DNA from: Proteobacteria bacterium UBA1847
Lineage (GTDB): Bacteria; Pseudomonadota; Gammaproteobacteria; Steroidobacterales; Woeseiaceae
Direction: 5' to 3'
DNA: 13,736 bases
NCBI GenBank assembly: GCA_002338605.1
Contig: DDIP01000170.1
Span: 15,564 to 29,299, forward strand
A program made the position numbers and the translations under genes. Position 1 is the stretch's first letter. Each line of letters starts with the position of its first letter. The notes beneath the pieces were generated by a model. That model did no database searches. It saw only the letters and a program-made list of their open reading frames with translations, and was not told the origin of the DNA. Shown here one piece after another: positions 1 to 13,736 of the stretch.

Positions 1-939
1 GCGGGTAGGGCGTGTCCCAACCAGCGACGCGGCCGATCGGTGCTTCGAGGTGATAAAAGCATTCTTTTTGCACCGATGCGACCAGCTCGGCTCCAAATCC
101 GCCGAAGCGTGTTGCCTCGTGGGCAACCATGCAGCGGCCCGTCTTGCGTACCGATTCGGCCAGTGTCTGCACGTCCAGTGGCGCCAGTGTTCTTACGTCG
201 ATCACTTCGCAATCGACGCCGGTTGCTTTCGATGCCGCGATTGCGACATGCACCAGCGTACCGTAGGTGATGATCGTCAGTTCATCGCCGGCTTGCGCGA
301 TGTCGGCCTGGCCCATCGGGACCGTGTAATAGCCTTCCGGTACCTCACCTTTCGGATGCGAGCCCCAGGAAACTGCCGGCTTTTCCGGGTCACCGTCGAA
401 CGGCCCGTTGTAGATCCGTTTCGGTTCAAAAAATACCACAGGGTCATCGGATTCAATGGCACTGATCAACAGCCCCTTGGCGTCATAGGGATTCGACGGC
501 ATGACAGTCTTGATGCCGGTGACATGCGTGAAAATGCCCTCCGGCGATTGTGAATGCGTCTGGCCACCGCGGATGCCGCCGCCGCACGGCGTACGGATAG
601 TCACCGGTGAGAAAAACTCGCCACTTGAGCGATAACGAAGGCGAGCCAGCTCGCTGACAATCTGGTCGAAGCCCGGGTAGATGTAATCGGCGAACTGTAT
701 TTCTGCGATCGGGCGCAATCCATTCACGCCCATGCCAATTGCAGTACCGATGATGCCGCCTTCAGAAATTGGCGTATCAATTACACGGTGTTCGCCAAAT
801 TTTCGTTGCAATCCGTCGGTGCATCGGAATACGCCGCCGAAATAGCCGACGTCTTCGCCGAGCACAATGACACGTGGATCCTTGTCCATCATCACATCGT
901 GAGCCGAGCGAATGGCTTCGATCATGTTCATGCGTGCCA

Positions 940-940
<1 letters not shown>
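1..940 (-). CDS. bkdA2: Branched-chain 2-oxoacid dehydrogenase E1 component, beta subunit (partial, 3' end beyond window)
   Basis: This is the beta subunit of the thiamine-diphosphate-dependent E1 decarboxylase. With E1 alpha it decarboxylates the 2-oxoacids from Leu, Ile and Val and passes the acyl group to lipoyl-E2 in the cytoplasm. The 313 visible codons begin MARMNMIEAIRSAHDVMM and run to RVAGWDTPYP at the window edge without a stop. Family hallmarks are visible: VLGEDVGYFGGVFRCTDGL (about 26-44), DTPISEGGIIG with the conserved Glu at residue 60 that contacts the ThDP pyrimidine, and RTPCGGGIRGG. Family members are about 325-355 residues, so only a short C-terminal part is missing. The ATG overlaps the E1 alpha stop by one base (TAATG), which indicates translational coupling. 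A pyruvate dehydrogenase E1 beta is the main alternative. The leucine dehydrogenase two genes upstream argues for branched-chain substrates. Confidence 0.93.
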
Positions 941-2193
<1,253 letters not shown>

Positions 2194-3246
2194 CTACTTT
2201 TTTGCGGCGGCGATATTACGGCGCGCCAGCTCGTCGGCAAGTTCATTGGTCGGACGGCCTGTCTTCTTGCTTTCGGCAAAAATCTTGTCGAGGCGTTGCG
2301 GAATTTTCGCGACGTCGTTTCGAACCTGGTCTTCCGAACTCTTGCCAAGGTACTCGTGTGAAACGCTAATGATACCGCCTGCGTTAATCACATAGTCCGG
2401 TGCGTAGAGAATCTCACGCTCGGTCAGCCGCGCGCCGTCGGCTTCGGTGGACAGTTGGTTATTTGCGGAACCAGCGACCACTTTGGCCTTGATTCTTGGA
2501 ATGGTCGCTGAGGAGAGAATGTTGCCGAGCGCGCAGGGTGCGATGACGTCGGCATCCGCATAGAGAATTTCACTGGGTGCGATGACTTTCACGGGAACCT
2601 TGTCGCCGACGGATTTCAGATTGTCCCGGTTAACGTCGGCAACCAGCAATTTCGCGCCGGCCTCGTGAAGCAATCGGCACAGATGCCCGCCGACGTGACC
2701 GACACCCTGGACGGCCACTGTGAGTCCTTCGCAGGAGTCCAGGTTGAGGCGTGATTTGACGGCTGCCTGAATACCGAGGAATACACCCACTGCGGTCCAC
2801 GGTGACGGGTCGCCGCCAGCGCTTGTGCCGCTTTGCGGCAGTCCCGAAACGTACTTGGTCTGCTTCTGCACCTCACGCATGTCGTCAACGGATACACCGA
2901 CATCTTCTGCCGTGATATAGCGACCGCCGAGCGATGCGACAGCACGCCCAAGGGCTGCGAACAACGCCGGTGTTTTGGGTGCGGCATTGTTCGCAAGAAT
3001 CACTGCTTTACCACCGCCAAACGGCAGTTCGGCAACTGCGTTCTTGTACGTCATGCCGCGCGACAAGCGCAGCGCATCGGTCAGTGCGTCGGTGTTGCTG
3101 GCATACATCCAGCGCCGGCACCCGCCGGCGGCAGGGCCCAGTGCCGTGGAATGAATAGCGATGATCGCCCGCAAGCCGGTGGCCTTGTCGCTGAAAAAAT
3201 GCAGCGATTCGTGATCATTGAATTCGTGGTGTTCGAACACGCCCAT
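2194..3246 (-). CDS. ldh: Leucine dehydrogenase (Glu/Leu/Phe/Val dehydrogenase family)
   Basis: This 350-residue cytoplasmic enzyme catalyses NAD-dependent oxidative deamination of leucine, valine and isoleucine to 2-oxoacids. The following two genes then decarboxylate those products. The substrate-site motif GPAAGG lies at about 37-42. PFGGGKAVI places the catalytic lysine at residue 80, the same number as in Bacillus leucine dehydrogenases. The ITAEDVG Asp is at about 115. A Rossmann motif GVGHVGG (about 181-187) is followed by an acidic residue in LLVADVN, as expected for NAD. The length matches the 340-370 residues of leucine dehydrogenases and is well short of hexameric glutamate dehydrogenases. 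The ATG has AGGGGA about 5 bases upstream. It is the first gene of the operon, divergent from an Lrp-type regulator. Valine or phenylalanine dehydrogenase activity cannot be excluded from sequence alone. Confidence 0.93.
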   Translation of the reverse strand: MGVFEHHEFNDHESLHFFSDKATGLRAIIAIHSTALGPAAGGCRRWMYASNTDALTDALRLSRGMTYKNAVAELPFGGGKAVILANNAAPKTPALFAALGRAVASLGGRYITAEDVGVSVDDMREVQKQTKYVSGLPQSGTSAGGDPSPWTAVGVFLGIQAAVKSRLNLDSCEGLTVAVQGVGHVGGHLCRLLHEAGAKLLVADVNRDNLKSVGDKVPVKVIAPSEILYADADVIAPCALGNILSSATIPRIKAKVVAGSANNQLSTEADGARLTEREILYAPDYVINAGGIISVSHEYLGKSSEDQVRNDVAKIPQRLDKIFAESKKTGRPTNELADELARRNIAAAKK

Positions 3247-3378
3247 GCCGATCCCCTGTGAGCAATGCGTAGCGAACTAATATATCCCGGAATAAGCGGA
3301 AAAAGCATGCAAAACCTTTCACTGGACTGCAAAAACACGCATAATCAATGCAATTACAGGAACTAATTCGACTAAATT
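3247..3378. promoter_or_regulatory. Divergent promoter region between leucine dehydrogenase operon and lrp-type gene
   Basis: This 132-bp AT-rich intergenic region contains four TGCA cores at 3308, 3328, 3349 and 3380, the last inside the lrp start. Three continue as TGCAAAA, TGCAAAA and TGCAATT. The spacings of 20, 21 and 31 bp are close to two, two and three helical turns, so all lie on one DNA face. That arrangement suits an octameric Lrp-type protein that wraps DNA. Candidate promoters, by eye: on the minus strand a TATATT -10 at 3279-3284 with a poor -35, giving a leader of about 25 nt for ldh. On the plus strand a CATAAT -10 at 3340-3345 lies about 18 bp from CTTTCA. The 3328 and 3349 motifs overlap that second promoter, which suggests autorepression. 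The promoters are approximate. Confidence 0.5.
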
Positions 3379-3846
3379 ATGCATATTGTTTCTCTCGATA
3401 ATACGGATCGAAAAATCCTCAATTTACTGCAAAGCGAGCCCGGTATTAACGCGTCTGCCATCGGCGAACGCATCGGCCTGTCACAGTCCGCTTGCTGGCG
3501 ACGTATGCAACGCATGCGCGAGGAAGGTGTCATGCGTGACCACCCGGTCATCCTCGATCGCGAAAAGGTCGGGCTTACGACGATGGTGTTTGCGCATGTG
3601 AAACTGAATTCGCACGGTCGCAGCAATTTGTCCAAATTTGCCGACGCGGTAAAGGAATACCCGGAGGTCATGGACTGTTACGTGGTGCTCGGCAATGTGG
3701 ACTTCCTGTTGCGTATCGTCGCCGAAGACATCAAGGCCTACGAACAGTTTTTCTTCGAAAAACTGTCGCAGCTACCCGGTATCCAGGAAGTCACCTCCAG
3801 CATCGTGCTATCGGACATCAAGCACACCACCGCCCTCCCAATCTAA
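3379..3846 (+). CDS. Lrp/AsnC-family transcriptional regulator (BkdR-like)
   Basis: This 155-residue DNA-binding regulator is probably a leucine- or 2-oxoacid-responsive controller of the divergent branched-chain degradation operon. The N-terminal part (LDNTDRKILNLLQ) leads into a helix-turn-helix at about 24-43 with LSQSACWRR, characteristic of Lrp proteins. A RAM/AsnC ligand-binding and oligomerisation domain follows at about 65-150, including DCYVVLGNVDFLLRIVAED. The ending KHTTALPI is common in this subfamily. An in-frame stop at 3373-3375 leaves ATG 3379 as the only reasonable start. The nearest purine-rich stretch (AGGAA at 3358-3362) is too far upstream, so translation initiation looks weak or the message has a very short leader. 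Pseudomonas BkdR is the precedent for a divergent Lrp-type activator of bkd genes. The stop codon sits 6 bp from the first REP-like repeat. Confidence 0.92.
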   Translation: MHIVSLDNTDRKILNLLQSEPGINASAIGERIGLSQSACWRRMQRMREEGVMRDHPVILDREKVGLTTMVFAHVKLNSHGRSNLSKFADAVKEYPEVMDCYVVLGNVDFLLRIVAEDIKAYEQFFFEKLSQLPGIQEVTSSIVLSDIKHTTALPI

Positions 3847-3865
3847 AGATAAGGTGGCAGTCACC
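3844..3865 (+). repeat. REP-like element A (plus orientation)
   Basis: The core GGTGGCAGTCACC spans 3853-3865 and can fold with a GGTG/CACC stem and GCAGT loop. The 9 bases before it (TAAAGATAA) recur on the minus strand beside element C, so the repeat unit appears to include the lrp stop codon TAA at 3844-3846. The core of element B begins 34 bp downstream. Confidence 0.75.
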
Positions 3866-3883
3866 ACAACCGCACCTAAGAGA

Positions 3884-3902
3884 TATGGTGGCAGTCACCA
3901 TA
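3884..3902 (+). repeat. REP-like element B (plus orientation)
   Basis: The same 13-bp core as element A (3887-3899) is extended by TAT and ATA into a 7-bp stem with a 5-base loop (TATGGTG, GCAGT, CACCATA). It lies between lrp and the RAYT gene. The roughly 90 bases from here to the RAYT start hold no recognisable gene or strong ribosome binding site. Confidence 0.75.
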
Positions 3903-3993
3903 ACTGTGCGAATACCGAACAAACGGTCGCGTTCCTCCTGCCACGAGCATGGCATTGTGGGTAGCAAGTTGATTCAACCTGCTGGTACCAATC

Positions 3994-4650
3994 GTGCCGA
4001 AATTTGCCCGACTCGTTGTCCCCGGATACCCGCACCACATCACGCAGCGCGGTATCCGAAAGCAGCGAACGTTCTTCGACGACTCAGACTACAGAGCGTA
4101 TGCCAAACTTCTGGCGAATCTGAAGGAAAGCGCCGGGGTTAGTATCTGGTCGTATTGCCTGATGCCGAACCACGTGCACGTAGTTGCGGTGCCGTCGGAT
4201 CGGCGCGCATTGGCCAAGCTGTTCGGAGTCGTACATCAGCGTTACGCAAAACGCGTCAATGCACAACATGGCTGGCATGGGCATCTGTGGCAGGCACGTT
4301 TTTTCTCGGCAGTAATGGACGAATCACATGCTTTGGCTGCCATGAGATACATCGAATTGAATCCGGTTCGCGCCGGATTATGTGATCGACCCGAGTTGTG
4401 GCCTTGGTCAAGCGTTCACGCTCATTTGGGCACCAGGACGGATGCCTTAGTCGATGGTTGTAGTTTGATCGACGATATCGACAACTGGGTGGAGTTTCTG
4501 GACGACTATGCGGCCTCGGATCTGATTGACTCGCTCCGGTCCACTACGAGAACCGGGCGCCCGGCGGGAGACAGCGAATTCATCGATCGCCTCGAATCTG
4601 AAACCCGTCGGCGTATCCATCGCCTGAAGCCTGGGCCGAAACGTTTTTGA
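3994..4650 (+). CDS. REP-associated tyrosine transposase (RAYT, TnpA_REP)
   Basis: This 218-residue single-strand DNA endonuclease belongs to the Y1 HUH superfamily related to IS200/IS605 TnpA. The N-terminal RLVVPGYPHHITQRG block is diagnostic of RAYTs. MPNHVHVV gives the metal-binding HUH pair (His60 and His62). MRYIELNPVRAGL contains the likely catalytic Tyr119. The C-terminal TGRPAGDSEFIDRLE segment matches the usual RAYT tail. The start is a GTG at 3994, chosen because the family begins immediately before this motif. No convincing Shine-Dalgarno is present, consistent with low expression. REP-like repeats flank the gene on both sides, which supports the RAYT call over an autonomous IS200. 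The reading frame is intact with all key residues present, so it may be functional. Confidence 0.93.
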   Translation: MPKFARLVVPGYPHHITQRGIRKQRTFFDDSDYRAYAKLLANLKESAGVSIWSYCLMPNHVHVVAVPSDRRALAKLFGVVHQRYAKRVNAQHGWHGHLWQARFFSAVMDESHALAAMRYIELNPVRAGLCDRPELWPWSSVHAHLGTRTDALVDGCSLIDDIDNWVEFLDDYAASDLIDSLRSTTRTGRPAGDSEFIDRLESETRRRIHRLKPGPKRF

Positions 4651-4662
4651 TCGCCGCCCGTG

Positions 4663-4687
4663 AGATAAGGTGACAGTCACCTTATCT
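4663..4687. repeat. REP-like element C, perfect 25-bp palindrome
   Basis: Two 12-bp arms (AGATAAGGTGAC and its exact reverse complement) flank a single central A at 4675. Elements A and B (GGTGGC...GTCACC) and D and E (GGTGAC...GCCACC) are asymmetric. Element C combines the GGTGAC and GTCACC halves and is therefore symmetric. It begins 13 bp after the RAYT stop, between convergent transcription units. It could act as a transcription terminator, but the T tract after it is weak (TTTAAT). Confidence 0.8.
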
Positions 4688-4702
4688 TTAATATGTGATT
4701 AG

Positions 4703-4715
4703 GGTGACTGCCACC
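4703..4715 (-). repeat. REP-like element D (minus orientation)
   Basis: GGTGACTGCCACC is the exact reverse complement of the core in elements A and B. It starts 34 bp after the core of element C (4669) and 33 bp before element E. Confidence 0.75.
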
Positions 4716-4735
4716 TCAATTCGATTTAGAGATAG

Positions 4736-4756
4736 GGTGACTGCCACCTTAACTTA
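4736..4756 (-). repeat. REP-like element E (minus orientation)
   Basis: The core GGTGACTGCCACC (4736-4748) is inverted relative to element A. Read on the minus strand it follows the isoaspartyl peptidase stop TAA (4756-4754) by 5 bases (GTTAA). This mirrors element A, which follows the lrp stop by 6 bases. The upstream flank TAGAGATAG resembles the flanks of elements B and C. Confidence 0.75.
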
Positions 4757-5638
4757 GGTGAAGGTTTTTACTTGTAGGGGTTGTTGGCTTGAGAGGGAGG
4801 CGCGTTTCATGCCGTCGGAGTTGTATAGGGTTGCGATCCGGCCATTGTGGTCGACGGCGATGATGCCCGCGTCGCCGCCGAGGCGAGCGACTTCATCGAG
4901 CATGTCGTGGATTGCCTTGTCGAGTGGTACGCCGCTGCGGTAGGCGCAGGCGATCGAGACAGCGCCGCCAGCGCGGATGATGTGCTCGCCGGTGCCGGTA
5001 CACGATATTGCAACGTGATCGTCGCACCAGGTACCGGGACCGATCAGCGGTGTGTCTCCGACACGACCTTCGAGCTTGCCGAATGTGCCACCGGTCGAGG
5101 TGCCTGCGGCCAGTGCACCGGACTGATCCAGTGCGACGGCGCCGACGGTGCCGTGTGCGTGGCTGTCTCGCATTTCATCTGCTGTTACACCAACCGGCAC
5201 CGTGTAGTAGTTGTCCGGATCGGCGACTTCCTCGAAGCCATGGCTGCGGGCGAACGCCCCGGCACCGGTTCCGGCCAGCAAGACATGCGATGTCTTTTCC
5301 ATGACGCCGCGGGCCACGCGAATGGGATGAACAAAATCCCGGATCGCCGCAACACCGCCGGCCATACGGGTCGTGCCGTCCATGATCGAGGCGTCCAGTT
5401 CGACGTAGCCGGCTGTATTCGCTGCAGACCCGCGACCGGCAACGTAGAGTCCACACGCTTCAAGTTCAGCAACCGCGATCTCGACAACATCGAGCGCGCT
5501 GCGCCCGCCGCTGAGCAAGGTCTCGCAGTGACGCGCGAGCTTTTCAAGGTGAGCTTCGACGGCATCGTAATTGCGACCCGCGACCGGCCCGGCACCGCCG
5601 TGCAGTGCCAGGGCATATTGTTTCGGACTATTGCTCAT
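4754..5638 (-). CDS. iaaA: Isoaspartyl peptidase / L-asparaginase (plant-type, Ntn hydrolase)
   Basis: This N-terminal-nucleophile hydrolase removes isoaspartyl residues from peptides and hydrolyses asparagine. The start chosen is ATG 5638 (MSNSPKQYALALHGGAG). It gives 294 residues, against about 321 for E. coli IaaA. The frame is open to 5710, but the extra 24 residues resemble no family member. Using this numbering, ALHGGAG is at about 11-17. HGTVGAVALD places the autocleavage and catalytic Thr at 164. STGGTFGKLEGRVGD and SCTGTGE form the substrate site. The protein is expected to mature into alpha and beta chains by cleavage before Thr164. No signal peptide is visible. The start overlaps the end of the pentaheme cytochrome gene by 11 bases and lacks a clear Shine-Dalgarno, so it appears translationally coupled as the last gene of the operon. 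Confidence 0.93.
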   Translation of the reverse strand: MSNSPKQYALALHGGAGPVAGRNYDAVEAHLEKLARHCETLLSGGRSALDVVEIAVAELEACGLYVAGRGSAANTAGYVELDASIMDGTTRMAGGVAAIRDFVHPIRVARGVMEKTSHVLLAGTGAGAFARSHGFEEVADPDNYYTVPVGVTADEMRDSHAHGTVGAVALDQSGALAAGTSTGGTFGKLEGRVGDTPLIGPGTWCDDHVAISCTGTGEHIIRAGGAVSIACAYRSGVPLDKAIHDMLDEVARLGGDAGIIAVDHNGRIATLYNSDGMKRASLSSQQPLQVKTFT

Positions 5639-6947
5639 CGGCGTGTTCGGGATTCTCAAGGGAGGCGAGCATAGCCGCAAAGCGGGAAGGACGGTAGCGC
5701 TCGTCATCATTCAGCGTGTCGGCGATGCGATCCAGTCGTTCCTCGAGCACAGGATCGCCAATTTCGATGACCAGCATTTGAACGGCCATAAAGGCCTGCT
5801 CCGCACTGATGTAGTCGAGGTAGTTGCCTTCTGCACCGGTCGCCAGCACTTCTCGCAATAAGGCCAGTTCACGGTTACCGAGACGTGCCGGTGACAGGGC
5901 GTTTTCGAGCCGTGCCAGTGTCGCATCCAGCGACCGCGCCGCCGCCTGTGTTGCAGCGACGTCTGTACTGCTGGCGCGATGCAGATCGGCGAGGCCGGAC
6001 TCAAACGCATCGGCATCGCTGGGCGATATCACTCGCGCGACAACCATGGCCATGACCAGCGCGCCGTCGTGCAGGAACGGTTGGCCCGGTCCGACACCAC
6101 CGTGACGCGGCAATGCACGCCATTGCACCGACTTCATTGAACGGTGGCAGGCATGGCAGTCGTACAGCGCGAGTTCGGGAAACAGCCTGTCGCCAGCGAA
6201 ACGCTCACTTGCAACCAGTTGCAGTCTCTTGCGGCTCTCGAGAATCACGCCGGCAGCCCATGTATAGAGATGATTGACGCCGCCCTTGCGATCGGAATAG
6301 TCCGCGTCAGGCTGGTAATGCGGCTGGCGTCCCGCCGTTCGCCAAAGCTCGGAAAAAGTATCCAGCTCAAAAGCGAGTCGCGGATGACCGGCGGCCATGA
6401 TTTCATGGGTTGCGAATTTGTCGCGATTACCAAGGTGGCAGGACAGGCAAAGTTCGCCTCGCGCGTCGACCCGGTGCGTGGGATACATGCCCGCGGCACG
6501 ATTGGACTCCAAAGAAGCGGTCGCCGTGTTGTAGTGACTTGCGAGCCAGTTCTCCGCGCCACCGTGACAGGCTTCGCAGCCGATGCCGTCGGACAACTGA
6601 AAGCGGTCGCCACGCTGTGCCTTCGGTACATTGTCTGCATGGCAATCGAGACAGATGTCAGCACTTGTCGCCGACGCCAGTCCGAGTCGCGATGCGATCG
6701 CCTGTGACTGCGCATTGCTCAACACCGCATAGGCCCGCGAGTGCGGGTCGTCCTGGGTCCACGTGACGTATTCGTTCTGCAGGACGCTGGATCCGTCACG
6801 TGGCACGGCTGAACCGTGGCATTGAGACGTTGCGCAGGTGGCGACGCCCATGTGGGTGTATCCGTCGCGCTCCGGCAGCTCGGCGTTTGCGCCTGCGGCA
6901 AGGATTGCGGCAAGCACTGCCATCATTGATCTATTCATCGTCGACAT
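5628..6947 (-). CDS. Exported pentaheme cytochrome c (cytochrome c554-like multiheme protein)
   Basis: From ATG 6947 this is a 439-residue c-type cytochrome with an N-terminal signal peptide (RSMMAVLAAILAAGANA, then ELPERDG), so it should be periplasmic or beyond. There are four CXXCH heme sites: CLDCH (about 99), CEACH (about 124), CLSCH (about 167) and CHACH (about 264). A fifth site, CATSQCH (about 38-44), has four residues between the cysteines, a spacing known from tetraheme cytochromes c3. EIMAAGHPRLAFELDTF supplies conserved histidines that may act as distal ligands. The C-terminal 170 residues are heme-free and alpha-helical in character. ATG 6938 is an equally possible start; the frame is open to 6992, but that extension is not signal-like. 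The gene overlaps the upstream decaheme gene and is probably the periplasmic electron partner. Electron donor and acceptor are unknown. Confidence 0.88.
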   Translation of the reverse strand: MSTMNRSMMAVLAAILAAGANAELPERDGYTHMGVATCATSQCHGSAVPRDGSSVLQNEYVTWTQDDPHSRAYAVLSNAQSQAIASRLGLASATSADICLDCHADNVPKAQRGDRFQLSDGIGCEACHGGAENWLASHYNTATASLESNRAAGMYPTHRVDARGELCLSCHLGNRDKFATHEIMAAGHPRLAFELDTFSELWRTAGRQPHYQPDADYSDRKGGVNHLYTWAAGVILESRKRLQLVASERFAGDRLFPELALYDCHACHRSMKSVQWRALPRHGGVGPGQPFLHDGALVMAMVVARVISPSDADAFESGLADLHRASSTDVAATQAAARSLDATLARLENALSPARLGNRELALLREVLATGAEGNYLDYISAEQAFMAVQMLVIEIGDPVLEERLDRIADTLNDDERYRPSRFAAMLASLENPEHADEQ

Positions 6948-9900
6948 ACCAGGGGTTTCCCTCCGCATCAAGATACAGGCGCCGCATCTCATCGTAGGTC
7001 AATGGACGCGACCCTCTGCGGCCAAACACTGCGATCTGGCCGCCAGTCTCGTCAACACCGCGATCGCGATCGAGACCTTTCGATAATGACAACACCGGGC
7101 TCTTGCTTGGGTAGCTCGCAATCAGCTCCGGAACCGGTGTCGGACTGAAGCCGTAGAAATTCGGCTGCGAATCCGGCGACGTCAGTTGCAACACTTTCAA
7201 GCCCGCCTCACCGTCGGCGATGTAGGCAAACAATGACGCATTGGTCGACCCGACAACGACGTCGCGCGTGTCGGACAGATCACCGCCGGCGTTGAATAAT
7301 TGCAGCAAGGCGGGCTTCTCCGGATTCCAAATGTCAATAATCGCGAGCCCGTCGGCGCGCGCCGCGACATAGGCATAGGTTCGTGCAAGATAGATACGTT
7401 CGGCATCGTGAAGCGCAACCTGCGCACCGCTGACAATTTCCGGCTGGTGTGGATTGGTCACGTCAATGACACGCAGCCCGGCTCGGTCCGTCACAAACAG
7501 GTAACGAAACTGCAAGGCAGACGCGCGTGCATCGTCGAGAGCGACCACTGCGGCAACGGTCGGTGCCAGCGGATCGTCGATGTCGACGACAACCAGCCCC
7601 CGTCTTGCGACGATGTAAATGAAGTGACCACCGATGGTCAGGTGGCGCGCACCGGCCAGGATGTTGTCAGGGTTCCATGTCAGTGCACGTTCCAGAAAGT
7701 TATTGCCAACATCACCATCCGACAGTGTTGTTACATCGACAATGATCAGCCCTTCAACCGCGTCGCTTAGGAACGCGTAGTTGTACATTGGATGGAAGGG
7801 CTGCTCCTGGTTGTCGATTCGCATGAGGTCGCCCTCATTGCGCGGCGGATGTATCGGCTGGTTCGTCGGCAGTGCGACACAGCTTGCATCGCTGGATTTG
7901 ACGTCCGAGTCGTGGCCGAGCCGGCTGAACGGCAGCTCGACGATGCGCTGGCTGAATCCCTTATTGGCGATATTCGCGATGTCGTAGACTTTCAGGCCAT
8001 TGGGACCTTCGGCCGCATACAAATATTCGCCGCGTACCTGCACACAGCCGGCCGCGCCGCCCTTGTGGGTGTACGCCGTTTTCAGAACCCGGCCAGCGGC
8101 AACATGCTGCTTGAAATTATCCGGGTACGCATAGCGATGCAGGTAACTGCCAATCACGGCTTGCGGTTCATCCCACTCGGTTACCTGGGTACCCAGAACG
8201 CCGTCACCCAGTCCCGCCCAGGCGTTGAAGCCGATAAAGTTGACGAAGTTGGTGCCTTGCAGCAACAACTGCGCCATCCAGGCATTGTTATCCCGCGCGC
8301 GGCTCAAGTGACAATTGCTGCAGGTCTTGGTTTCAGTTTTGCGCGCGGTGTGCGGGAAATGCGGATTCATCGCCTGTGAACTGAAGCCGCTGGCCGACAC
8401 CGGCGCCTGCTGCACATAAATATGCTCGCGGTTCGCATTGGTCGACGACAGGACCAGTGCCGATGACGAGCGCACCGGTGCGATTTTGCCGTCGTTCAAC
8501 GGCCCGCGACGCCCGAGCATGAACATCTGGTCGCGCGCCACCTGCGGATTGTAGGTCGCAAAATTCCGGGTCTCGCCACCTTCGTAATGATGCTGGCTGG
8601 TTTTCCAGTTGGCCTCGATGGGCAAGTGACAACCGGCGCAGCTCGTGATCCACGCCGTGTGGCAGGTATAGCATTCGAGTTCCTCATCCTTGTGTGCAAG
8701 ATTCTCGATTGCGACACCCGTGCCCCAGTCTTGACGCGTCACATCGTTGCTCATTAATTTCGCGCGCGCTGCCTTCTCGTTGTACTCGGCGTGCTCGGGG
8801 TTCACGGAGTCCCTGACCAAACTCAAAGTCCACTCAAGATCCGGATCGAGTACCGATCGCTGCACCAGCGTGTCGCCTTGCCATTCAAAGCGGCGTTTGC
8901 CGTCGGAGTTTCGATACAACCGCATATCGGTGCCGCCAGGCGGTGCGGCCGGACCCGAGGTACGAAGATCCGGATAGGCCTGTGCGGTGCCATGGCAGTC
9001 CTTGCACTCCACCTCAATTGCGCTGGCTACTTCACCGTAGATGTGACCATTGCCATGGTTGTCCTGGGTGAAGTGGCAATCGACGCAATGCATGCCCTTG
9101 TCGACATGAATCGACGACAGGTGAACGGCCTTGGAAAACTTGTCGGGGTCGTCATGGGCAACAATCCGGCCATCCGCATCCAGCAGGTTGCCGCGCAAGT
9201 CACGTTTTTGCACCGCCCGAAAGTTCCAGCCATGCCCATGATAGTCGGCAAACTGCGTGTCACTTAGCGACGGGTTGAGATCCGTCACGTTACGCAGGAA
9301 GTCGAGGTCCGCCCACTTGCCGCGCACTACGGCACCTTCCGGGTTGCGATCGAGGACTTCGCGCTGTTCGGCGGTGCTTAATTGTTGCTGTTCTTTTGGC
9401 CACATGAATGGCGCGTCGGACTCGTAGTCCCACATCGTGTAACCGAGGTAGGAGTTCATGAACATGTTTGGCTGATGCATGTGACAGACCATGCACTGCG
9501 ATGTCGGAATTGCGCGGGTGAACGCGTGCTTCAGCGGATGGCCCGGTTCACCTTGGGGAATTTGTGGATCGACGGATGCCGATTCACCATCGCGCCCGAA
9601 GGCGGCGTATGGTCCTGAATGACGCGGGTCGCGGTCGTTGGCGTACACAACGTGACAGCTCGCGCAGCCGGAAGACCGGTAGTCGCCCGGCTGATCATTC
9701 GTTCCGATGAACCAGGTAACCGGGTCATTCAAGCGCGTCTTGTGAATATTGATCAGCGGTACGGCAATGCGCCCGCCGGTACCGGGACCGCGGTTCGATT
9801 GCCGGTTGTCGGGCTTGCCGGGTTCTTCCAGGCGCTGTATCTGGCCGAGCGAATTGGGCAAACCGGTTTCCGGAAACAGGTTTGTAAGGTTCCGCCCGCC

Positions 9901-10608
9901 GTCTTCAAAGACACGAAAAACATCGGCCGGATTGACGCTCTCCCAGGTCGGCAGCGGATACAGCTCCGGGAGGATGCCGTGCTGTTTTGCGACGGCCGGG
10001 TCGATCTCGAGCCCGGTCACCTTCGCGGCCTTGCCATCGGCCGTGTATCCCTCGCCAAGAATATAATTCTTGTAGGGCAGGATGCCGTTGTTATACGACG
10101 CGCCGCCCCACAACATGACGCCCGTTGCCATCATGCTGCGAATATTCGCGTCGATGATTTTCTGGTGGCAGGCACCACAACTCTGCTCGGCTACACGATA
10201 GTCTGACGGATTGACGAAGCGAATGAACTCGGGGCTCTCGCGATTGAGCAATGTATAGCTGCGTTTTGGGTTGGCACTCGACGGATAGTGCCAGCTCTCC
10301 GGGTAGCGCGGCGCGACATGCGCCCGATCGCGGGCACCGTCATCGTCTTTTTGCACGCCCGGATTGCCACCGTGACAATCCGTGCAACCGAGAATTACCG
10401 ATGGGCTCTTGTGCATGCTGCTTTCATCGCTCGCGCTGTGGCAGCTGATGCAGCCAAAACTCTTCAGCTCGGCGGTCTGAACAGTCTGTGCGGCCGGGGC
10501 AGGCGGATAGTCCGGGTAATCGATGTCCCTGGGCTTTTCGCCCTCCGCGGCCGAAAGCAAGGCCGGGACAGACAGCAATAGCAGGCAGGTGTTTGCGCGT
10601 TTGATCAT
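6931..10608 (-). CDS. Decaheme cytochrome c fused to a C-terminal LVIVD-repeat beta-propeller
   Basis: This 1225-residue exported protein starts with a signal peptide (MIKRANTCLLLLSVPALLSA). Ten CXXCH sites begin at residues 53, 75, 144, 315, 372, 508, 535, 646, 657 and 763, enough for a chain of ten hemes. From about 860 to 1143 six LVIVD-type repeats follow, for example YLYAAEGPNGLKVYDI, FIYIVARRGLVVVDI and YLFVTDRAGLRVIDV. They are predicted to form a beta-propeller for protein or surface contacts. No lipobox is obvious at the signal peptide end. The ATG is 6 bp after the barrel gene stop, with no strong Shine-Dalgarno. The 3' end overlaps the pentaheme cytochrome gene. Beside an outer-membrane barrel, the simplest role is the extracellular or barrel-embedded part of an electron conduit. 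A soluble multiheme oxidoreductase is the alternative. Residues 1171-1178 read PVLSLSKG, discussed separately. Confidence 0.9.
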   Translation of the reverse strand: MIKRANTCLLLLSVPALLSAAEGEKPRDIDYPDYPPAPAAQTVQTAELKSFGCISCHSASDESSMHKSPSVILGCTDCHGGNPGVQKDDDGARDRAHVAPRYPESWHYPSSANPKRSYTLLNRESPEFIRFVNPSDYRVAEQSCGACHQKIIDANIRSMMATGVMLWGGASYNNGILPYKNYILGEGYTADGKAAKVTGLEIDPAVAKQHGILPELYPLPTWESVNPADVFRVFEDGGRNLTNLFPETGLPNSLGQIQRLEEPGKPDNRQSNRGPGTGGRIAVPLINIHKTRLNDPVTWFIGTNDQPGDYRSSGCASCHVVYANDRDPRHSGPYAAFGRDGESASVDPQIPQGEPGHPLKHAFTRAIPTSQCMVCHMHQPNMFMNSYLGYTMWDYESDAPFMWPKEQQQLSTAEQREVLDRNPEGAVVRGKWADLDFLRNVTDLNPSLSDTQFADYHGHGWNFRAVQKRDLRGNLLDADGRIVAHDDPDKFSKAVHLSSIHVDKGMHCVDCHFTQDNHGNGHIYGEVASAIEVECKDCHGTAQAYPDLRTSGPAAPPGGTDMRLYRNSDGKRRFEWQGDTLVQRSVLDPDLEWTLSLVRDSVNPEHAEYNEKAARAKLMSNDVTRQDWGTGVAIENLAHKDEELECYTCHTAWITSCAGCHLPIEANWKTSQHHYEGGETRNFATYNPQVARDQMFMLGRRGPLNDGKIAPVRSSSALVLSSTNANREHIYVQQAPVSASGFSSQAMNPHFPHTARKTETKTCSNCHLSRARDNNAWMAQLLLQGTNFVNFIGFNAWAGLGDGVLGTQVTEWDEPQAVIGSYLHRYAYPDNFKQHVAAGRVLKTAYTHKGGAAGCVQVRGEYLYAAEGPNGLKVYDIANIANKGFSQRIVELPFSRLGHDSDVKSSDASCVALPTNQPIHPPRNEGDLMRIDNQEQPFHPMYNYAFLSDAVEGLIIVDVTTLSDGDVGNNFLERALTWNPDNILAGARHLTIGGHFIYIVARRGLVVVDIDDPLAPTVAAVVALDDARASALQFRYLFVTDRAGLRVIDVTNPHQPEIVSGAQVALHDAERIYLARTYAYVAARADGLAIIDIWNPEKPALLQLFNAGGDLSDTRDVVVGSTNASLFAYIADGEAGLKVLQLTSPDSQPNFYGFSPTPVPELIASYPSKSPVLSLSKGLDRDRGVDETGGQIAVFGRRGSRPLTYDEMRRLYLDAEGNPWYVDDE
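7075..7098 (-). repeat. Possible decayed palindromic-repeat remnant (PVLSLSKG) inside the decaheme gene
   Basis: The encoded octapeptide PVLSLSKG, between the last LVIVD repeat and the C-terminus, is the typical translation of a widespread environmental-bacterial palindromic repeat of the CCTGAGC...GTCGAAGGG type. The DNA here has mostly different codons (CCG GTG TTG TCA TTA TCG AAA GGT), so it would be an old, synonymously diverged insertion or a chance match. It is recognised from memory only. Confidence 0.3.
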
Positions 10609-10614
10609 AGAGTT

Positions 10615-12384
10615 TCAGTAGGCCAGCAAGACATTGGCAAGTACGGAATAAGCGGTATCGGAACCGAACAATTGTCGATAGCCGTCGCCCGGAAGCAGCG
10701 CCGAACCTGCCAGCCGGAGGACGATGTTCTGCGACGTCAGCGGCCGGTACGTCAGCGAAAAGGAAAGGTCCTGGCCAATCGTCCGTTCAACGGGACCCTG
10801 GTTGCGTGCCACCTCAAGCACCGCGGTATCATCAAACCAGAGTTGATTGATATTGATTGATGCCCTGAGCTTCGGCGTGACTTCCATGTCGACGCCTGCG
10901 CCGAGCAACAGCAGTCCTGGATTGCTGAAGTTGGACTGACTGTTGAACTTGTTGGGCCGCAAGGAATTCAACAGTCCGTTCGGTGACGACAATGTGACCC
11001 GGCCGCCGCCAACCAGTGGCAGTGACTGGCGTATCCAGAAACTGGTGTCCGCACCGGCGATCAGCGGGTTTTCGAAAATCGCATCGAAACCATTCGACCT
11101 GTCGTCATGAGGTTCATCATCGCCGCTGCCATAGACCAGAGAACCACGCAGGCGCAACCAATCAAAGTCCCGCGAGACCTCGACTGCTGCAAACGCCGCA
11201 CGGATATCGCTCGGTTGATCAATGAAGCTCGCCGGTGTCTCTTCGCCGAAGGCGTAGTACGCCGATGCGGTCAGGTTCCAGCGGCCGAAGTGACCATCAC
11301 CGTTGAAGCCGAGATAGCTCACATCGTATTCGCGGGTTTTCTGGATGCCAAGAGCTGCGGGGCGGTCGACAAAGCCGTTGGTATCAATGAACGCGGCACC
11401 TGTTTCCCTGTTGCGATTGTGTAGCAACGCGATTTGCGATGTGAAGCCGAGTACCGGGAAGTCCTGCCGGTAAAGATTGATCAGGAAAACATCGTCTTCG
11501 CGCAAGTCGGCGGAAATATCGTTCAGGCCGCTGTTGGTGTTTTTCTCCAGGCGACGAAAAGCACCGATATTGTATTGCCAGCGGTTGTTGTCGCGCGTAC
11601 CGAACAAACGAATGCCGACCGGGCTGTCCTGGAACAAAAATCCCCGGAAGTCGGCGGTAATGGGCTGAATGCCAATTCGAATGCTGTCAAAGTCGTAACG
11701 CTCCGAGACATTTCGCAGGTGCTTGTCGACAAAAAGGCCCTGTATGCCGAGGAAATCATCGTCACGAATGGTATTCAGCGTGCTGTCGGCACGGAGGATG
11801 CCGGGCTGGTCGACTTCAACGTGCGTCAGGCTGAACACCGGCAGGAACCGAAACTCATAGTCGGGCGGCTTGAATATCGTTTCGCCCTTGTAGAGTACCG
11901 TCTCCAGGATAAAGGTCTGCGTGATTGCAACCTGGTCCGGGTCGCCAAAGATGCCCAATGTGTCAGGGTCGGGCGTTGTGGAGATTGCAGCCGGCGTCGG
12001 AAGACTGCGACCTTCGGCGGTAGTGTCGGAAATAAAATTCAACGCGACAAACCAGTCCTTGCCGAAGGCCGGCCGATCGCCCTTCAAAACGTTATTGCCA
12101 TTGTAGGGATCGAACAGGCGTTCTCGATAGCCGATGGCGTTGACAATGCGCCACCGGTCCGGAATCGCGGTGAAGTCCGGCAAGTCACGCCAGACGGCTG
12201 GTATCACGCCGGGCTCGTCGCAACGTCTCAACTCGCGCGGCGCTTCGCCCGGACGACGACGCAATCGTTCCTGGTACTCAGCGCAATCGGCACGCAGACC
12301 CGGTAACTCGGCATGCGAAATCACCGGAGTCGCAAGCACCAGCAGGGCGGCAGCCAAAACCGGTCTACTTGCCATCGCAAACAT
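10615..12384 (-). CDS. Outer-membrane beta-barrel protein of a putative porin-cytochrome conduit
   Basis: About 589 residues. A signal peptide (SRPVLAAALLVLATPVISHA, then ELPG) is followed by a short cysteine-flanked helical segment (CAEYQERLRRRPGEAPRELRRC, two Cys about 21 apart). The rest consists of alternating hydrophobic and polar strands typical of a barrel. Strand-like pieces include YEFRFLPVFSLTHVEV, FDSIRIGIQPITADFRGFLF and WNLTASAYYAFG. The C-terminus is SVLANVLLAY with a terminal aromatic residue, the usual signal for outer-membrane insertion. There is no CXXCH. Start choice is uncertain: GTG 12396, ATG 12384 and ATG 12375 all keep the signal peptide, and every option overlaps the upstream gene (32, 20 or 11 bases). 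It is immediately followed by two exported multiheme cytochromes. The likely role is a sheath carrying hemes across the outer membrane. The exact family is not recognised, and an ordinary porin is possible. Confidence 0.8.
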   Translation of the reverse strand: MFAMASRPVLAAALLVLATPVISHAELPGLRADCAEYQERLRRRPGEAPRELRRCDEPGVIPAVWRDLPDFTAIPDRWRIVNAIGYRERLFDPYNGNNVLKGDRPAFGKDWFVALNFISDTTAEGRSLPTPAAISTTPDPDTLGIFGDPDQVAITQTFILETVLYKGETIFKPPDYEFRFLPVFSLTHVEVDQPGILRADSTLNTIRDDDFLGIQGLFVDKHLRNVSERYDFDSIRIGIQPITADFRGFLFQDSPVGIRLFGTRDNNRWQYNIGAFRRLEKNTNSGLNDISADLREDDVFLINLYRQDFPVLGFTSQIALLHNRNRETGAAFIDTNGFVDRPAALGIQKTREYDVSYLGFNGDGHFGRWNLTASAYYAFGEETPASFIDQPSDIRAAFAAVEVSRDFDWLRLRGSLVYGSGDDEPHDDRSNGFDAIFENPLIAGADTSFWIRQSLPLVGGGRVTLSSPNGLLNSLRPNKFNSQSNFSNPGLLLLGAGVDMEVTPKLRASININQLWFDDTAVLEVARNQGPVERTIGQDLSFSLTYRPLTSQNIVLRLAGSALLPGDGYRQLFGSDTAYSVLANVLLAY

Positions 12385-13736
12385 TCTGTTCGTCACTGTT
12401 GAGGTAAGGCGTTACCGGGCAATTAACGTAACGCAAACGAGAGCCCTGCGGTACCAGGGTGTCGGCACGCATCGAAACGGGCGCATTCGAAAAACCACCG
12501 ACGGCCTGTGCCGCCTCATGAACACTGAGAAAGGCAATCATGTCATCCTGGTCAACACCATCGCCCGATACACCGATGCCGCCGACAAGCCGGGTGCCGC
12601 GATAAATCGGCACGCTGCCCGGAAATATCTGCGTGCCGTTGGCCAACTGCCCAATGACGTTGGCAGTGACGAAGTTGTCGTCAAAACCGTCGATGCCGGA
12701 GCAATTCGTCGGCGCATCCGCAGCGAGGCCGGCGACGAACGCAACATGCTGCACCAGGGCGTTGTAGACGAGGTCGAGCTGCAGGCCGGTCGAAAACGGA
12801 CTCCATTCACCGGCCGGTTTACTGAATGGCCCGGGCGGATTGCCGCTGACGCCATCCGGGTAGTAAGGCCGAGACAGGTTGCCGCCGGCGCGGTCGGAAA
12901 ACGCGACTGCGCCGTCGGCGAGGGCGCCGGGCAAGCCGAGAAAACTCTGTGCGGCGGCCACATACTGGGACAAGGGCTCGTCGCGCAGCACTTGCAGGCC
13001 ACCGTCGAGATACGTTGCCGCAGGCACCGCATTCAGTGCGCTGGCGGCCGATGACGACGAAAAGAAAGCGGCGGTCCGTGCTTTTTGCAGTGAGACGTCG
13101 ATGCCGAAAACCGGCGCGTCGCGTGATCGAACGATGCCGAGAATCACACCGTTGGAGTCCACGACGGAAATACTGACTCTTGCCTGCGAGCCGCCAGGCT
13201 GTCGAATCTGCGCGCGCGAGCGATTGGCGACCGTCAATGCCTGGCGGAGGATTGCACCGACCTCGGCAGCCGTCAACGCCATCGCACCGTCGGTCCCGGC
13301 CATCGGCCGAAAGCGCTCGACGTCCGCGTTGTCGACCAGGACAAAGGCATCGAGTCCGGCGTAGTCGAGTGCATCGGCGCGAATACCGGAGGCGGCCTGC
13401 CCGAACGGAACACCGGCTATTATCGTCGCCTGCGCGTAGCCCGGCACAGGCTGCAAGGTTCCCGCGACATTATTGATGCTGGCAAATGATGCGGCACTGC
13501 CGGGGTCGGCGATCAGGTTTGCCGGAGACGCGTCCGAGAAACGCAAGCTGCGGCCGTCGACACTGATGACGTTGGCGCGCCTGTTATCGGGTGCCCCGAA
13601 TCCGGCGGTTGCCGCAACGGCAATGAGTTCATCGTCGTCGAGATCGGAATCTGAAATATCGGTGTCAAAGGAATACAAGCTGTCGCTGATGACACCAACA
13701 CCACCAACCGGGGTTCCGGCTTTGTAAAGCGGCAGG
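12365..13736 (-). CDS. Tandem GlcG/HbpS-family heme-binding domain protein (partial, 5' end beyond window)
   Basis: The 456 visible codons stay open to the right edge. A TTG at 13678 is internal, because the codons before it read LPLYKAGTPVGGVGVISDS, which is clearly domain sequence. Two HbpS-like domains are visible. The C-terminal half of the first contains GGVGVISD, DDDELIAVAATAGFGAP and ISVDGRSLRFSDASP. A complete second one runs from LTAAEVGAILRQALTVANRS through VSISVVDSNGVILGIVR and SLQKARTAAFFSS to IYRGTRLVGGIGVSGDGVDQDD. It ends with the parallel motif VPQGSRLRYVNCP. The second domain carries a roughly 100-residue insertion (AFSDRAGGNLSRPYYPDG, NPPGPFSKPAGEWSPF). HbpS/GlcG relatives bind heme or small ligands. 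The gene is first among those visible in the cytochrome operon, so a role in heme delivery or sensing is plausible but inferred. Export cannot be judged without the N-terminus. Confidence 0.82.
   Translation of the reverse strand, partial: LPLYKAGTPVGGVGVISDSLYSFDTDISDSDLDDDELIAVAATAGFGAPDNRRANVISVDGRSLRFSDASPANLIADPGSAASFASINNVAGTLQPVPGYAQATIIAGVPFGQAASGIRADALDYAGLDAFVLVDNADVERFRPMAGTDGAMALTAAEVGAILRQALTVANRSRAQIRQPGGSQARVSISVVDSNGVILGIVRSRDAPVFGIDVSLQKARTAAFFSSSSAASALNAVPAATYLDGGLQVLRDEPLSQYVAAAQSFLGLPGALADGAVAFSDRAGGNLSRPYYPDGVSGNPPGPFSKPAGEWSPFSTGLQLDLVYNALVQHVAFVAGLAADAPTNCSGIDGFDDNFVTANVIGQLANGTQIFPGSVPIYRGTRLVGGIGVSGDGVDQDDMIAFLSVHEAAQAVGGFSNAPVSMRADTLVPQGSRLRYVNCPVTPYLNSDEQNVCDGK

Follow-up and report, generated by a model that had tools for sequence, protein, structure and literature searches.

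A conserved operon of an AlgE-fold barrel and multiheme cytochromes in Proteobacteria, a likely trans-envelope electron conduit

Introduction

Only a few barrel families underlie the outer-membrane electron conduits known so far, and searches for conduits often use models of these barrels. Do a barrel and two exported multiheme cytochromes encoded together in a stretch of Woeseiaceae DNA form such a conduit, and is the set of genes seen there complete? The stretch (the window) comprises 13,736 nucleotides (nt) of the draft genome of Proteobacteria bacterium UBA1847 (467 contigs, 82.9% complete), at positions 15564-29299 of contig DDIP01000170.1, called C379 here. At 4754-13736 the window holds, all on the minus strand and head to tail, the 3′ part of a gene for an HbpS-domain protein (HBPS2), an outer-membrane barrel gene (BARREL), a decaheme cytochrome gene (DECA), a pentaheme cytochrome gene (PENTA) and a gene of the asparaginase family. 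An earlier reading made from the letters only, here the sequence-only reading, took these genes for a possible conduit of a type different from MtrCAB.

Our answer, held with moderate confidence, is that the window carries the outer half of a trans-envelope electron-transfer operon, which would form a conduit from NAD(P)H to the cell surface. A conduit function is likely, and the operon is a conserved and apparently unnamed variation on the porin-cytochrome idea, with more genes than the sequence-only reading saw. We found no description of this gene combination in the literature searched, most subscription papers being outside it.

Results

Conservation of the barrel-cytochrome operon

The genes of the operon are tightly packed. 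On the minus strand of the window, HBPS2 (12365..13736) overlaps BARREL (10615..12396) by 32 nt, BARREL and DECA (6931..10608) are separated by 6 nt, and PENTA (5628..6992) overlaps DECA by 62 nt as listed, or by 17 nt when counted from the likely true PENTA start, a Met near position 6947. DECA encodes an exported c-type cytochrome of 1225 amino acids (aa), with ten CxxCH motifs in a cytochrome domain (residues about 27-790, positions 8239..10530) and a C-terminal LVIVD beta-propeller (residues about 793-1181, positions 7066..8232; PF08309, 86 bits in Pfam). PENTA encodes an exported pentaheme cytochrome of the Cytochrome_C554 type (PF13435, 46.8 bits; cytochrome c-554, 1bvb, at E 7e-4), with four CxxCH motifs and one CX4CH. 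Together the two proteins carry 15 heme sites, and the genes, coordinates and heme counts of the sequence-only reading were confirmed. In an alignment all ten DECA sites are present in at least 99% of 78 relatives. Similarly, both Cys and the His of the PENTA CX4CH motif are invariant, as are the four CxxCH motifs, in the 57 relatives that were aligned out of 66 found.

Matches to a DECA pattern in public genomes numbered at least 592, of which 590 were confirmed, and the locus counts given here refer to the best 80. The conserved order is OXR-CYTB-FHADECA-HBPS-BARREL-DECA-PENTA, followed in some loci by PP2C and FHA genes, where OXR, CYTB and FHADECA encode an oxidoreductase, a membrane cytochrome and a further decaheme cytochrome. 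Where both flanks reach at least 9 kb (36 loci), OXR, CYTB, FHADECA and BARREL are each found in 36/36, HBPS in 34/36, PENTA in 32/36, FHA2 in 15/36 and PP2C in 14/36. Median intergene gaps range from -31 to +6 nt, and PENTA lies directly 3′ of DECA in 50 of the 69 loci with at least 2 kb there. By a strict rule BARREL was not found in L033 and L040 (64 loci counted); L040 does hold a barrel, whose open reading frame (ORF) overlaps an over-extended DECA ORF. Because the same gene arrangement is kept across many loci, a chance arrangement is excluded. The loci encode together, and conserve, a barrel with two or more exported multiheme cytochromes, one of the features of porin-cytochrome conduits in general.

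The association extends to whole genomes. Among 369 Gammaproteobacteria species (the class sample), BARREL had a strong match in 14. CYTB was strong in all 14 of these genomes vs 3/355 others (Fisher 9e-23), and DECA in 12/14 vs 1/355 others, a fragment (Fisher 1e-19); these values treat species as independent and are therefore overstated. In both barrel genomes that lack DECA, the contig breaks off at the barrel or shortly after it. In a phylum sample of 299 genomes, BARREL was strong in six, the window's own genome included, and CYTB (E<=1e-60) in 6/6 of these vs 3/293 others. HBPS adjoins the barrel in each of the other five genomes, and DECA is present in four, the fifth contig ending just after the barrel. 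Weak matches were not counted (CYTB 16/25 in the phylum sample; BARREL 4/18, DECA 67/80 and CYTB 39/56 in the class sample). The barrel therefore keeps cytochrome neighbors elsewhere, whose lack would have counted against the sequence-only reading, and its gene recurs together with those for the decaheme and pentaheme proteins in other genomes. Furthermore, OXR-CYTB-FHADECA lie about 675 kb from the barrel in genome G273 and about 8 kb away in G318, so the link is more than neighborhood. Distance-matrix correlations among the seven families are 0.82-0.95 (24 loci), values that could arise from shared ancestry alone.

The DECA family is large, with at least 7956 of 7998 scored candidates at E<=1e-50, and the 120 matches listed are nameless, annotated as "hypothetical protein" or, once, as "multiheme c-type cytochrome". 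The set is patchily distributed; DECA is strong in 6/36 other genomes of the same genus and in 3/23 others of the order. One contig that carries the operon (L065) is from a metagenome-assembled genome (MAG) titled Klebsiella pneumoniae, a label that looks doubtful.

The window holds the outer half of the operon

The sequence-only reading had taken the set in the window as complete, which it is not. The operon extends past the window edge, where further redox genes lie. HBPS2 crosses the window end into an N-run on C379, beyond which lies the end of another multiheme cytochrome, and the full-flank loci all add OXR, CYTB and FHADECA to the genes of the window. In the window's own genome, OXR, CYTB and the 5′ part of FHADECA lie at the end of contig C369 and the 3′ end of FHADECA at the end of C379. 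The two contigs are not joined, and from synteny we infer that the assembly splits the operon between them. The own-genome OXR is 89% identical to the copy at locus L028.

OXR (789 aa in L028) combines a pyridine-nucleotide oxidoreductase (FAD/NAD(P)) domain, two cyclic-nucleotide domains and a HycB/DmsB-like ferredoxin domain with four 4Fe-4S motifs, whose 16 Cys are invariant in 52/52 relatives. Its C-terminus matches formate hydrogenlyase subunit 2 (E 2.8e-22), residues 1-310 of the L028 copy hold no CxxC of the thioredoxin-reductase kind, and an NR..EF.R stretch presumably suggests NADPH over NADH. CYTB has about six hydrophobic segments and five His that are invariant in 42/42 relatives, and it is weakly like cytochrome b561 (17.5 bits, under the cut-off of 30.1). 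The OXR C-terminus and CYTB thus resemble HycB/DmsB-type ferredoxins with b-type membrane cytochromes, but OXR, unlike these ferredoxins, also contains a YpdA/thioredoxin-reductase-like FAD domain, which lacks CxxC, and the two cyclic-nucleotide domains as fusion partners. An FHA domain lies at the N-terminus of FHADECA, which further has a single hydrophobic segment and ten CxxCH motifs invariant in 48/48 relatives. A role of the FHA domain as a phosphothreonine reader was only partly supported, as the Arg of its Gly-Arg pair is present in 25/48.

In the proposed chain, electrons would pass from NAD(P)H to the FAD of OXR and its four 4Fe-4S clusters, then to what are probably two b-hemes in CYTB, and on to the ten c-hemes of FHADECA, anchored in the inner membrane and facing the periplasm. 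From FHADECA they would reach the 15 c-hemes of PENTA and DECA at the outer membrane and then an external acceptor, with PENTA and DECA held by or passed through BARREL and HBPS2 as an exported accessory. A full chain of 25 c-hemes from NAD(P)H to the surface is plausible. Direct observation covers the gene content, its conservation and co-occurrence, the cofactor motifs and the modelled fold of the barrel; we infer the order of flow, its outward direction, the surface exposure of DECA and the role of BARREL.

Outward flow fits because the chain starts with a flavoprotein and because Steroidobacter, Haliea, Zhongshania and Pseudoteredinibacter, which are among the carriers, are heterotrophs. 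The chain could also run in reverse, with DECA oxidizing an external donor such as Fe(II), Mn(II), reduced sulfur or a cathode and the electrons reducing NAD(P)+ or the quinone pool. Flavoprotein/ferredoxin modules of the OXR type can run both ways, and the MAGs behind two of the 80 loci are titled Biocath_Gamma_022 (L039) and Nitrosomonas sp. (L034). Against this direction stand the heterotroph genera among the named carriers, the uphill reduction of NAD(P)+ from such donors and the lack of an energy-coupling-like subunit among the seven operon genes. We regard reverse flow as distinctly improbable.

The barrel is not of the MtrB family

The predicted BARREL structure is a barrel of 18 long strands with the AlgE fold and an N-terminal extension bearing two conserved Cys. 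Identity to AlgE is 16%, and no Pfam family matched at E<=0.1, the alginate-export families included. BARREL (protein P0004) had no NCBIfam match at E<=1, its sole match in a sequence search was an amidohydrolase at E 1.2, and MtrB was not among the matches listed for the model in the structure search. BARREL was therefore rejected as an MtrB/PioB-family barrel (TIGR03509). For comparison, the MtrB of the same genome scores 358.7 bits against a cut-off of 240 and matches PDB 6r2q_B at 1.7e-63. This canonical MtrB/PioB barrel is encoded at L200 (contig C96, 6344-10778) together with a DmsE-family decaheme gene and a multiheme frame interrupted by an N-run. Thus, as the sequence-only reading held, the present set differs from MtrCAB. 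That the operon is merely a divergent member of the MtrCAB/PioAB family, which also pairs a barrel with two multiheme cytochromes in one operon, is scarcely credible, given that BARREL fails to match where the own-genome MtrB passes. At another locus of the genome (L162, contig C400), cytochromes with 39 and 21 CxxCH motifs (724-5339 and 5358-8912) lie beside CYTB-like, CcmH/CycH-like and OXR-like genes.

No PDB sequence matches DECA at E<=1; structure searches returned propeller matches, the best of them an archaeal surface-layer protein. The NCBIfam model for ExtM of Geobacter gives DECA 75.4 bits, about a tenth of its cut-off of 800, a distant match under the equivalog threshold. ExtM-like proteins without a propeller also occur in Gammaproteobacteria (L191, 226.9 bits). 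For PENTA (P0002), no match to the ExtKL model (NF040886) was seen at E<=0.1.

Points against a conduit and exchange of the outer module

Several observations weigh against the conduit. The BARREL fold is of the AlgE/OprD type found in solute channels, and its 18 strands are fewer than the 26 of the MtrB barrel, so that an MtrA-like plug cannot simply be assumed. The cytochrome part of DECA was modelled at low to moderate confidence. A crude pattern found a lipobox in 0/120 DECA ORFs, fragments included, so that by this pattern a lipobox offers no explanation of how DECA would be anchored at the surface; the same pattern was positive in 38/81 HBPS ORFs. OXR is not beside CYTB or the barrel, within the surrounding stretch, in G391, G318, G273 and both copies of G461. 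Finally, because the own genome also has MtrB- and MtrA-type genes, the set may do something other than respiration.

The first and third of these observations would suit a different arrangement, in which BARREL selectively admits a soluble substrate, for which DECA and PENTA act in the periplasm as reductases or electron carriers fed from NAD(P)H by OXR-CYTB-FHADECA, with no electron crossing of the outer membrane. A parallel exists in Geobacter ExtI, for which the accessible part of one report proposes a selenite/tellurite channel or a cytochrome anchor (PMC5877670). We consider this arrangement rather unlikely, since DECA carries a large propeller with a surface-layer protein as best structural match and since one genome, G441, has replaced BARREL and DECA together.

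G441 has no BARREL or DECA and retains OXR-CYTB-FHADECA and two PENTA genes. Its inner half adjoins an alternative outer module (L186, 13168-19276) of a 542-aa protein that is barrel-like by eye, with no Pfam family, and a 593-aa protein with five CxxCH motifs and weak similarity to ExtKL. A profile comparison gave a 0.3% probability for BARREL and the 542-aa protein, indicating no sequence relation. Joint exchange of both outer parts, seen here in one genome, is the pattern expected of two components of a single outer-membrane redox unit. Geobacter conduits likewise show replaced outer-surface parts, as described in the portion of PMC6148476 that was available.

Some observations also speak against a fixed unit. 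G461 has two copies of CYTB-FHADECA-HBPS-BARREL-DECA-PENTA, each with a divergent set of CHASE2-cyclase, TPR and FecR-like genes replacing OXR, and the G391 stretch has a cyclase gene where OXR would be. OXR occurs elsewhere in the genome in G318 and G273; in G461 and G391 it was sought in the fetched stretch only and was absent there. By the strict rule HBPS is absent from L034 and L070 (53 loci counted). G391, an 81% complete draft, has a DECA fragment and HBPS with no barrel found, the G381 stretch stops at a contig edge, and in the sample or stretch covered G060, G093 and G212 have the inner genes with neither barrel nor DECA. In G093 and G212 (L158, L159), OXR and CYTB are fused in a frame of about 1120 aa, followed by a FHADECA relative with nine CxxCH motifs and no outer module in the stretch. 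In G502 (L194, 149-6521), a divergent paralogous set (PENTA-like, OXR-like, CYTB-like and 10-heme) adjoins and faces the main operon.

HBPS2 and regulatory neighbors

HBPS2 is an exported protein with tandem HbpS/GlcG domains (PF03928), scoring 58.4 bits in the window part and 79.8 bits in a full-length relative (L028). The HbpS gene that the sequence-only reading placed ahead of the barrel is present, although the window holds its 3′ part only. Upstream of HBPS, eight loci (L036, L037, L043, L044, L046, L047, L052 and L076) have a small extra gene (family F10, median 173 aa); most of them have alphaproteobacterial titles, and the one F10 protein tested had no Pfam match.

The conserved HbpS domain (34/36) raises the prospect of assimilatory iron or heme acquisition, in which Fe(III) or heme iron would be reduced at the surface and HBPS2 would bind iron or heme. 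Two genomes of the genus, G015 (L128 390-3647, 138.9 bits) and G002 (L081/L134), have a gene for a TonB-dependent receptor near the operon, and parts of the Geobacter ext cluster are Fur-regulated according to the text of PMC5877670 at hand. On the other side, a crude search with a consensus sequence found 0 Fur-like boxes at <=5 mismatches vs 0.4 expected in 61 regions upstream of OXR. On balance acquisition appears unlikely as the function, and it retains some weight because of the receptor gene in two genomes and the HbpS domain.

The same 61 regions, searched with consensus sequences, showed no excess of Fur, FNR, NrdR or OxyR boxes. CRP-like sites at <=1 mismatch were seen in 5/61 vs 0.6 expected from shuffles, which is too weak to use.

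Signaling genes lie beside some copies of the operon. The nearest relative that has a long contig is G015, where genes for a CHASE2-class III cyclase, a TPR protein and a FecR protein lie upstream of OXR. Near full-length relatives of the cyclase stand beside the operon in G051, G391 and both G461 copies (tblastn, 46-50% identity over 724-733 aa), and in the window's genome and G030 the ends of cyclase genes found by tblastn lie at a contig or stretch edge, several other loci ending earlier. The cyclic-nucleotide pockets of OXR keep their Arg in both domains in 52/52 relatives and their Glu in 51/52 and 38/52. A Ser/Thr kinase gene follows PP2C and FHA2 in L035, the one case seen. The OXR domains, the CHASE2-cyclase neighbors and the PP2C, FHA and kinase genes after PENTA suggest that electron flow may be regulated by cyclic nucleotides and perhaps by phosphorylation.

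Other genes of the window

The Asparaginase_2-family gene (4754..5710, minus strand; PF01112, 249.9 bits) overlaps PENTA and scores 188.3 bits with the NCBIfam beta-aspartyl-peptidase model, far under the cut-off of 567. This gene, counted by the sequence-only reading as an isopeptidase member of the operon, was found in only 3/80 loci, some of the 80 ending before its place, and is a local neighbor, not a conserved member. A Y1/IS200-like transposase gene (3994-4650, plus strand, 48.5 bits) converges on the operon end. Positions 2-3846 encode branched-chain-type 2-oxoacid dehydrogenase E1 subunits, a Glu/Leu/Phe/Val-type dehydrogenase and an AsnC/Lrp regulator.

Discussion

A new conduit variant is the best reading of this operon. 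The proposal that the window encodes a different conduit type stands in that the cytochrome neighbors are conserved and the set differs from MtrCAB, and it fails in that the isopeptidase lies outside of the set and the set in the window is incomplete. MtrCAB/PioAB and the present operon have a barrel and multiheme cytochromes in common, which in the present operon would serve outer-membrane electron transfer as well; in contrast, BARREL has no detectable homology to those barrels and 18 modelled strands, and the present operon has a propeller cytochrome and its own NAD(P)H-side module. AlgE and OprD-type porins share the 18-strand AlgE fold with the BARREL model, whereas BARREL differs in its low identity, its lack of a Pfam match, its N-terminal extension and its cytochrome partners.

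The nearest relatives are the ext clusters of Geobacter. The parts list of extHIJKL and extMNOPQS, as given in the accessible text, is similar, with a porin (ExtI), a pentaheme cytochrome (ExtKL), 12-heme ExtM, 10-heme ExtN, an Fe-S protein (ExtO) and a cytochrome b (ExtP) in one cluster (PMC5877670). DECA is distantly homologous to ExtM, for which that text mentions no propeller, unlike the LVIVD propeller of DECA. ExtO is described there as Rieske-type, whereas OXR has four 4Fe-4S motifs, FAD and cyclic-nucleotide domains. Additionally, no rhodanese-like gene as in the ext clusters is among the seven genes here, and BARREL matches no NCBIfam model. In the part of PMC6148476 that was available, extHIJKL alone supports partial metal-oxide reduction. 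Further afield, NHL-repeat genes are clustered with cytochrome genes in Desulfovibrio ferrophilus, according to the accessible text of PMC9769857. Papers on Woeseiaceae report mtrABC and outer-membrane cytochromes, and their available sections do not mention this operon (PMC12175321; PMC11442690).

It is possible, and we propose it tentatively, that the operon represents an unnamed class of complete NAD(P)H-to-surface conduit, with an AlgE-fold barrel, a propeller-decaheme cytochrome and cyclic-nucleotide gating, which is widespread in Alpha-, Beta- and Gammaproteobacteria and could serve aerobic surface chemistry over anaerobic mineral respiration. The record titles of some carrier lineages indicate open water that is probably oxygenated. 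Such surface chemistry, if real, would be iron reduction, superoxide production or the feeding of surface oxidoreductases. Conduits are often sought with barrel models, and no NCBIfam model matches BARREL. If the proposal is correct, many aquatic bacteria now classed as aerobic heterotrophs might be able to trade electrons with their environment, and donor, wire and cyclic-nucleotide control would lie in one operon that can be tested in cultured genera.

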